Of a DNA stretch of 64,000 bases, positions 14,801 to 17,800 are shown piece by piece (position 1 is the first letter of the stretch; each line of letters opens with the position of its first letter). Made by a program: the position numbers and the translations under genes. A model generated the notes under the pieces. The model was not told the DNA's origin. It did not search any database and was given only the letters and a program-made list of their open reading frames with translations. Source of the stretch: Protonemura montana (taxonomy: Eukaryota; Arthropoda; Insecta; Plecoptera; Nemouridae); the NCBI GenBank assembly GCA_947568835.1, contig OX387608.1:1228501-1292500 (forward strand), given 5' to 3'.

Positions 14801-17800
14801 TGCAGGTTCTAGGTAGAGGCAGAACGTTAATGTTAAACCGTTGAGTGTGCAGGTTCTAGGTAGAGACAGAACGTTGATGTTAAACCGTTGAGTGTGCAGG
14901 TTCTAGGTAGAGACAGAACGTTAATGTTAAACCGTTGAGTGTGCAGGTTCTAGGTAGAGGCAGAACGTTAATGTTAAACCTTTGAGTGTGCAGGTTCTAG
15001 GTAGAGACAGAACGTTAATGTTAAACCGTTGAGTGCAGGTTCTAGGTAGAGACAGAACGTTAATGTTAAACCGTTGAGTGTGCAGGTTCTAGGTAGAGAC
15101 AGAACGTTAATGTTAAACCGTTGAGTGTGCAGGTTCTAGGTAGAGACAGAACGTTAATGTTAAACCGTTGAGTGCAGGTTCTAGGTAGAGACAGAACGTT
15201 GATGTTAAACCGTTGAGTGTGCAGGTTCTAGGTAGAGACAGAACGTTAATGTTAAACCGTTGAGTGTGCAGGTTCTAGGTAGAGACAGAACGTTAATGTT
15301 AAACCGTTGAGTGTGCAGGTTCTAGGTAGAGACAGAACGTTAATGTTAAACCGTTGAGTGTGCAGGTTCTAGGTAGAGACAGAACGTTAATGTTAAACCG
15401 TTGAGTGTGCAGGTTCTAGGTAGAGACAGAACGTTAATGTTAAACCGTTGAGTGTGCAGGTTCTAGGTAGAGACAGAACGTTAATGTTAAACCGTTGAGT
15501 GTGCAGGTTCTAGGTAGAGACAGAACGTTAATGTTAAACCGTTGAGTGTGCAGGTTCTAGGTAGAGACAGAACGTTAATGTTACAGTCTCTGCGTGAAAG
15601 ATGACCTCCTTACCGACAAAAATGCAGAGTACCGGAACATCACGTTAAGTGGAGCCACTGTCGTATGAAATTTAATTTAGATATTTCTCGTAGATCACTT
15701 GCTTTTGAATATCGTTACGTGTATATCAATCGTTGAGGTAAACATTGATGGAGATCTTTTGATCTTCATCTTTTGAAAAATCGAGTACAAAGTAAGGATG
15801 GTCTGGTTTTTAAGAATGCACTGAAGGAACTGTTTTTCTTCTTTATCTCACTCTTTTGTTTTATTTATCTTTTATGTACCTGAGTTTTCAAATGTTACCA
15901 GACATGTATTCAATCGTGGAGGAATACTATACAATGTTTTTGTCTGCTATGCAGGTCAGCCCGTGCCGTCACCTTCTCGACTGACAGTCTTTGAGAGTCG
16001 TATCTTCTGGTCGGACGGAACCAAGCAGGGAATCATGAGCGTTGACAAATACACGGGCGCCAACTCGATCCAATCCGTGTATCGGATGAAAGACGTCAAA
16101 GAACCGAGAGCAGTCAAAGCAGTTCACAGCCTGGTGCAGTCTAAACGTAAGTCAGATGATTGTCAAAGCAGTCCACAGCCTGGTGGAGTCTAAACGTAAG
16201 TCAGATGATTGTCAAAGCAGTCCACAGCCTGGTGGAGTCTAAACGTAAGTCAGATGATTGTCAAAGCAGTCCACAGCCTGGTGGAGTCACAACGTAAGTC
16301 AGATGATTGTCAAAGCAGTCCACAGCCTGGTGGAGTCTAAACGTAAGTCAGATGATTGTCAAAGCAGTCCACAGCCTGGTGGAGTCACAACGTAAGTCAG
16401 ATGATTGTCAAAGCAGTCCACAGCCTGGTGGAGTCACAACGTAAGTCAGATGATTGTCAAAGCAGTCCACAGCCTGGTGGAGTCACAACGTAAGTCAGAT
16501 GATTGTCAAAGCAGTCCACAGCCTGGTGGAGTCTAAACGTAAGTCAGATGATTGTCAAAGCAGTTCACAGCCTGGTGCAGTCTAAACGTAAGTCAGATGA
16601 TTGTCAAAGCAGTCCACAGCCTGGTGGAGTCTAAACGTAAGTCAGATGATTGTCAAAGCAGTCCACAGCCTGGTGGAGTCACAACGTAAGTCAGATGATT
16701 GTCAAAGCAGTCCACAGCCTGGTGGAGTCACAACGTAAGTCAGATGATTGTCAAAGCAGTCCACAGCCTGGTGGAGTCTAAACGTAAGTCAGATGATTGT
16801 CAAAGCAGTCCACAGCCTGGTGGAGTCACAACGTAAGTCAGATGATTGTCAAAGCAGTCCACAGCCTGGTGGAGTCACAACGTAAGTCAGATGATTGTCA
16901 AAGCAGTCCACAGCCTGGTGGAGTCTAAACGTAAGTCAGATGATTGTCAAAGCAGTCCACAGCCTGGTGGAGTCTAAACGTAAGTCAGATGATTGTCAAA
17001 GCAGTCCACAGCCTGGTGGAGTCACAACGTAAGTCAGATGATTGTCAAAGCAGTCCACAGCCTGGTGGAGTCACAACATAAGTCAGATGATTGTCAAAGC
17101 AGTCCACAGCCTGGTGGAGTCACAACGTAAGTCAGATGATTGTCAAAGCAGTCCACAGCCTGGTGGAGTCTGAACGTAAGTCAGATGATTGTCAAAGCAG
17201 TCCACAGCCTGGTGGAGTCTAAACGTAAGTCAGATGATTGTCAAAGCAGTCCACAGCCTGGTGGAGTCACAACGTAAGTCAGATGATTGTCAAAGCAGTC
17301 CACAGCCTGGTGGAGTCACAACGTAAGTCAGATGATTGTCAAAGCAGTCCACAGCCTGGTGGAGTCTAAACGTAAGTCAGATGATTGTCAAAGCAGTCCA
17401 CAGCCTGGTGGAGTCTAAACGTAAGTCAGATGATTGTCAAAGCAGTCCACAGCCTGGTGGAGTCACAACGTAAGTCAGATGATTGTTAAAGCAGTCCACA
17501 GCCTGGTGGAGTCACAACGTAAGTCAGATGATTGTCAAAGCAGTCCACAGCCTGGTGGAGTCTAAACGTAAGTCAGATGATTGTCAAAGCAGTCCACAGC
17601 CTGGTGGAGTCACAACGTAAGTCAGATGATTGTCAAAGCAGTCCACAGCCTGGTGGAGTCTAAACGTAAGTCAGATGATTGTCAAAGCAGTCCACAGCCT
17701 GGTGGAGTCTAAACGTAAGTCAGATGATTGTCAAAGCAGTCCACAGCCTGGTGGAGTCACAACGTAAGTCAGATGATTTCAATTGTTTGATTAGTTGGGT

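Follow-up and report, generated by a model that had tools for sequence, protein, structure and literature searches.

The window, by which we mean the whole 64,000-bp stretch of DNA analysed here, carries on its plus strand a large part of a giant gene of the LDL-receptor family (LRP1/LRP2 type). The LDLa repeats, EGF modules and YWTD propellers that characterize this family are all present: a Pfam scan of the 680 residues of modelled exons 1–11 recognized LDLa, EGF-like and YWTD-type families, with no single YWTD repeat passing 0.001 alone and the whole protein scoring 39.1 for YWTD against a cut-off of 21. When compared with the Protein Data Bank, the product of exons 8–10 matched 36 distinct chain sequences, with LRP2 the best and no LRP1 chain among the 36 matches listed. 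The gene model was built by hand; 54 of 55 hand-picked exon cores could be placed, and splice sites were assigned by phase and by simple scores. It stays open as far as exon 46 but breaks down beyond exon 47, and the later exons are therefore approximate landmarks. By this model and alignment to LRP2 protein, exon 9 (15955–16146, 192 nt) encodes the end of propeller 1 and ends in phase 1. It is followed by intron 9 (16147–18356, 2210 bp), about three quarters of which is a tandem array, and by exon 10 (18357–18497, 141 nt, phase 1-1), which encodes one EGF-like module according to Pfam. A sequence scan also revealed an AATAAA hexamer in intron 9, 3′ of the array (17872–17877), as a putative signal only, and two further AATAAA/ATTAAA hexamers in the same intron that start at 18058 and 18213.

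The array itself consists of 34 contiguous 49-bp units in register (16113–17778, plus strand), and TRF run on the window reported essentially the same object (16113–17782, 34.1 copies, 97% matches, 0% indels). The first-pass annotation had counted about 34 repeats at 16112–17779; its copy number stands, and its coordinates are one base off at each end. It had also seen correctly that the repeat begins within the coding part of exon 9 and includes the donor: unit decomposition and the gene model show that unit 1 (16113–16161) is composed of the final 34 nt of coding exon 9 and the initial 15 nt of intron 9, and that it holds the real exon end and the real donor, whose GT lies at 16147–16148. 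The 18-mer AACGTAAGTCAGATGATT is exact in 33 of the 34 units (100 shuffles of the window gave a mean of 0.01 matches), and the donor AAC/GTAAGT is identical in 33 as well, the sole exception being unit 20 (17044–17092), in which it has been lost (ATAAGT). The proposal of a ladder of near-identical 5′ splice sites is thus well founded. On the plus strand of the window, 33 of the 44 occurrences of GTAAGT and 33 of the 34 occurrences of AACGTAAGT fall inside the array. There is no open frame through it; stops occur in all six frames, and the longest open stretch is 45 residues.

Two main types of unit can be distinguished by two differing bases (TA or AC) a few bases 5′ of the donor, and private variants are confined to units 20, 22 and 29. 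The exon-type bases, T at unit position 12 and C at position 25, occur only in unit 1 and in unit 10 (16554–16602); the exon-type variant therefore does return exactly nine units, or 441 bp, later, as had been noticed. The further claim that blocks including the exon end were copied did not reach significance against shuffles. Units 1–9 and 10–18 agree at seven of nine places (P=0.13, with the exon-type units fixed at 1 and 10 and the variant unit 22 scored as the TA type), and nine is the best lag (17/25), with P=0.06 for a best lag that good; we have consequently set aside a nine-unit block duplication as not demonstrated. The distinct unit types in mixed order and the private variants are difficult to reconcile with an artefact of assembly, a possibility to be weighed for an array known from a single assembly. 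The 18.9-Mb contig, which suggests the use of long reads, and the many comparable arrays nearby also argue against such an artefact, and we regard it as very improbable.

Three LRP2 alignments bear on the origin of the unit. They are gapless over the residues encoded by the unit's exon portion and across the junction of exons 9 and 10 that results from use of donor 1 (VHSL.Q against VYHSLRQ or VYHALRQ, then NPC and NNGGC), and their nearest gap lies upstream of the array. Judged by this homology, the alignments show donor 1 to be the coding donor and the exon part of the unit to be ancestral coding sequence, not an exonised array. The opposite order of events, in which the array came first, a mobile minisatellite having inserted into the intron and only later supplied the exon end, might be suggested by the many introns of this gene that hold arrays of recurring families. 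The ancestral character of the exon piece is nonetheless a strong argument against any such exonisation, and no second locus of the 49-bp unit was found in the 258-Mb genome (34 contigs) either by DNA search or by exact pattern. All 15 matches of the DNA search lie in this array, as do all 31 genome-wide matches to the exact 49-bp pattern, which, with no mismatch allowed, fits 31 of the 34 units. We therefore judge an origin from a mobile array to be extremely improbable. The surrounding 264 kb likewise holds no other locus of the unit, but such an absence is no proof of uniqueness: the unit of a 34-bp array in intron 37 (46020–47452) has no relative within these 264 kb, yet its exact copies genome-wide, counted over both strands, number 1699+1239 = 2,938. 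DNA searches with this 34-bp unit and with a 47-bp unit returned no matches, though both are in the window; the tool probably skips very common words.

The exon 9 array lies in a region in which tandem repeats are abundant. Within the window and 100 kb on either side of it (C11:1128501–1392500), 108 arrays of period at least 15 and at least three copies cover 93,276 of 264,000 bp (35%). Relaxing the threshold to 2.5 copies gives 110 arrays; 87 of these have matches in other DNA of the 264 kb (a part of the matches being single pieces, not arrays), and 23 have none. Many of the arrays belong to a few families that recur in both orientations. The region of a related receptor gene on contig C13 is nearly array-free (192 of 50,000 bp), and thus the expansion is uneven over the genome. 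Within the gene, modelled introns account for 21 arrays; many introns hold arrays of families found elsewhere, and only the exon 9 array overlaps an exon. Just upstream of this exon, a 47-bp array of 118 copies (10057–15583) fills 93% of intron 8. Another intron, of 404 bp, which splits an LDLa module, is also 93% array; its 50-bp repeat (52263–52639), of a family known elsewhere, starts 3 nt past the donor and stops 24 nt short of the following exon.

Some of these families have recognizable flanks, here judged by eye. The 91-bp arrays (35720–35904, 61794–62206 and many nearby) share their left flank at 12 of the 14 printed loci (of 27), mostly with the same start base; the 52-bp arrays (18544–18938, 41040–41765, 43598–44044) do so at 8 of 13, including 43598 and excluding 18544 and 41040. 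A common left flank was seen at 6 of 14 printed loci of the 41-bp arrays and at hardly any of the 114- and 45-bp arrays. Rfam recognizes 5S rRNA at two places in the window and tRNA at three, and one of each overlaps an array. At least two families may thus be in-place expansions within 5S- and tRNA-related SINE-like elements: the 91-bp arrays look like tandem expansions within 5S-rRNA-related SINE-like elements, and the 52-bp arrays look like the head of a tRNA-like element.

Could the capture of exon edges be a habit of this region? As a rule of placement, the notion that arrays start next to donors had to be rejected. In the introns up to 46, 9 of 18 arrays start within 60 nt of a donor against 5.3 expected, and a test of their placement was not significant (KS P=0.17), the exon 9 array being counted as distance 0. 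This test left out the three arrays assigned to introns 51–53, for which the gene model does not hold, and two others: one at 956, which precedes the first modelled exon, and one at 63288, which runs off the window. A codon-usage screen of array edges (110 arrays in the 264 kb and 2 in the 50 kb) put the exon 9 array in the eighth row. Seven rows rank higher: C11:1295651 and C11:1280763 (the array at 52263 of the window) start just inside introns, two are C11:1322082, and the remaining three (C11:1174206 twice and C11:1164073) are candidates only. There may thus be further exon-seeded arrays in the screened 264 kb and 50 kb. The locus C11:1322082–1322225 (minus strand) is an in-frame 42-bp coding repeat of the PPQQQGY type, in contrast to the out-of-frame 49-bp array. 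Lower in the screen, a 70-bp array (C11:1315029–1315792) starts about 4 nt past the apparent donor of another gene's exon, an exon judged by its open frame only. It is conceivable, though we hold it to be doubtful, that a genome-wide process turns almost any segment of 30–110 bp into an array and repeatedly seizes exon edges; donor ladders would then exist in many genes, a first-donor rule would let the genome survive them, and exon 9 would display a newborn minisatellite family whose single-copy parent is still readable.

The genome also yielded an observation on COX1. Contig C34, which gives the impression of being the mitochondrial genome, holds a COX1 reading frame with eight internal TGA codons, as is expected under the animal mitochondrial code; the impression of the lineage is arthropod-like. 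COX1 matches, one scoring the same as the C34 copy, lie on the minus strand of C4 (5760925–5777755) and look like either mitochondrial DNA that recently entered the nuclear genome or an error of assembly.

How, then, might the splicing machinery deal with such a ladder? According to a donor matrix that was not trained on this species, donor 1 ranks 16th of the 46 donors in the gene, and neither exon 9 nor intron 9 has an equally good GT outside the array. By the same matrix, 54 plus-strand sites in the window score at least as well as donor 1, and 33 of them are in the array (19.8 per kb inside it versus 0.34 outside). The 33 intact donors are identical over positions −3 to +6 and, save a few variable bases, also alike from 34 nt upstream to 15 nt downstream; nothing local would therefore seem to bar the later ones from use. 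RNA structure could in principle discriminate among them. With a folding window of 150 and a span of 100, donor 1 has a predicted openness of 0.132 and unit 10 is as open (0.126); unit 9 follows at 0.097, and the remaining units lie at about 0.01–0.04. At spans of 60–200 the predicted openness of donor 1 is about 2.4–5.3 times the median of the array-type units, with no difference at a span of 40. The predicted advantage of unit 1 is mostly due to a single one of the two positions at which exon-type and array-type units differ, and a predicted hairpin, noticed post hoc, pairs two of the bases that distinguish the types. Part of the openness of donor 1 would come from the array itself, since the predicted value falls to 0.046 when the array is cut to one unit. 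Structure as a gatekeeper was nevertheless rejected on these predictions: the array-type donors, with a mean openness of 0.027, are more open than most of the gene's 45 other donors (median 0.007, 91% at or below 0.03), and structure should accordingly be no barrier to them. Position would then be left as the basis of donor choice, as it appears to be in the human precedents discussed below. With donors so nearly identical, any strong bias in usage would stem mainly from position, that is, from distance to the acceptor, order of synthesis or exon length. The choice between equal 5′ splice sites is an old question that is testable here in a natural gene.

The consequences of choosing a later donor can be computed. 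An in-frame TAA lies just 5′ of donor 2 (16191–16193), and all four of the isoforms computed (donors 2, 3, 4 and 10) terminate there after 15 new residues. The remaining later donors should end at the same stop, because the sequence up to it is common to all of them. The earlier prediction that a later donor would end the protein just after propeller 1 is borne out by these isoforms and by the LRP2 alignment. Its corollary, a secreted N-terminal fragment of LDLa repeats, EGF modules and propeller 1, has in its favour a product in which the 15 new residues follow 562 modelled ones, a count that begins at the first modelled exon and not at a start codon. But tens of further modelled exons come after the stop, and an mRNA with a premature stop so far upstream of its remaining exons is an expected substrate for decay; the product would also lack the EGF-like module, encoded by exon 10, that follows propeller 1. 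A soluble short form is thus most unlikely.

We consider it probable that a local tandem expansion seized the edge of exon 9, that donor 1 is the one mainly used, that later-donor transcripts are prone to decay and that the ladder is mostly a tolerated by-product. A 49-bp segment spanning the boundary between exon 9 and intron 9 would have been captured in an expansion event and amplified to 34 copies, presumably by the same very active process that has filled the region with tandem arrays. The outcome resembles a minisatellite newly born, with the single-copy sequence that gave rise to it still legible. Intron 9 would still be removed, with the spliceosome pairing the exon 9 acceptor with donor 1. 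Three features would favour this donor: it lies closest to the body of the exon, it is synthesized before the others and its use yields the shortest exon. Low-level use of later donors would produce transcripts that terminate at 16191–16193 and are mostly degraded, and the ladder may slightly lower output.

A closely similar arrangement has been described in intron 18 of human ABCA7, where the first two bases of a 25-bp VNTR are the donor of exon 18 (PMC5954066). In the passages of that report drawn on here, retention of one unit, which is out of frame, amounts to 2 ± 1%, and transcripts with a premature stop increase upon cycloheximide treatment (PMC5954066). Skipping of exon 19 increases with VNTR size, while unit retention is unchanged; longer VNTRs accompany lower expression, which the authors state is not caused by the premature-stop transcripts (PMC5954066). 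As far as these passages allow the comparison, in both genes the first GT of the array is the exon's own donor, the unit length is not divisible by 3 and the next donor leads to a frameshift. The ABCA7 unit, however, begins at the GT, whereas here each 49-bp unit carries 34 nt of coding exon; moreover, gene and organism are different, and the present array is known from the sequence of one assembly.

The ABCA7 precedent also bears on two other readings of the ladder. Later donors might serve as a poison-exon switch, their use being tuned to a rate set by array length, so that unproductive splicing reduces the output of receptor. The arrival of the four computed isoforms at one stop, the 33 intact donors of 34 and the lower expression that accompanies longer ABCA7 VNTRs (PMC5954066) are all consistent with this. 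However, only three units bear private variants; an array so young or so homogenised gives no indication that donors are being kept, and the passages on ABCA7 report constant retention across VNTR lengths and the authors' denial that these transcripts cause the lower expression (PMC5954066); such regulation is in our estimate unlikely. Alternatively, the long array of donors might disturb the next exon and yield a receptor without one EGF-like module. The symmetry of exon 10 matters here because the exon after the ABCA7 VNTR is skipped increasingly as the array grows (PMC5954066), and computed omission of the 141 nt of exon 10 keeps the frame. The ABCA7 passages do not show, however, that repeated donors are the cause of that skipping (PMC5954066), and intron 10 holds an array too; we would call skipping of exon 10 quite unlikely.

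The IFI6 (6-16) minisatellite of man provides the second precedent for the tolerated ladder that we favour: two downstream repeat units act as donors and give three mRNAs, which are said to encode isoforms (PMC4526556, referring to Turri 1995). On this partial account, repeat units at an exon end provide extra splice donors in both cases, but the variants from the two downstream units used in IFI6 are said to encode isoforms, whereas here later donors lead to a stop. A productive ladder of the IFI6 type, in which later donors give full isoforms, is not what was found, the four computed isoforms all reaching the TAA. A positional rule that enforces the first donor, the other possibility raised by the first-pass annotation, would fit the ABCA7 and IFI6 precedents better than a soluble form does. 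None of the literature matches listed names this gene or array. In unit size and homogeneity it resembles the dispersed minisatellite families of the genome (41, 47, 50, 52, 91, 114 bp and others), several of which are in the gene. Those families recur at other loci, and their 91-, 52- and partly their 41-bp arrays share flanks; the 49-bp unit does not so recur, having one known locus and an exon-edge seed. Its unit holds the authentic donor of the exon and its array extends from the end of exon 9 (16113) into intron 9 (17778). By this analogy we assign the exon 9 array to the already known kind of donor-containing VNTR, with ABCA7 and IFI6 as close precedents, from which it is distinguished by the 34 nt of coding exon that every unit contains and by its setting in a region rich in dispersed minisatellites.
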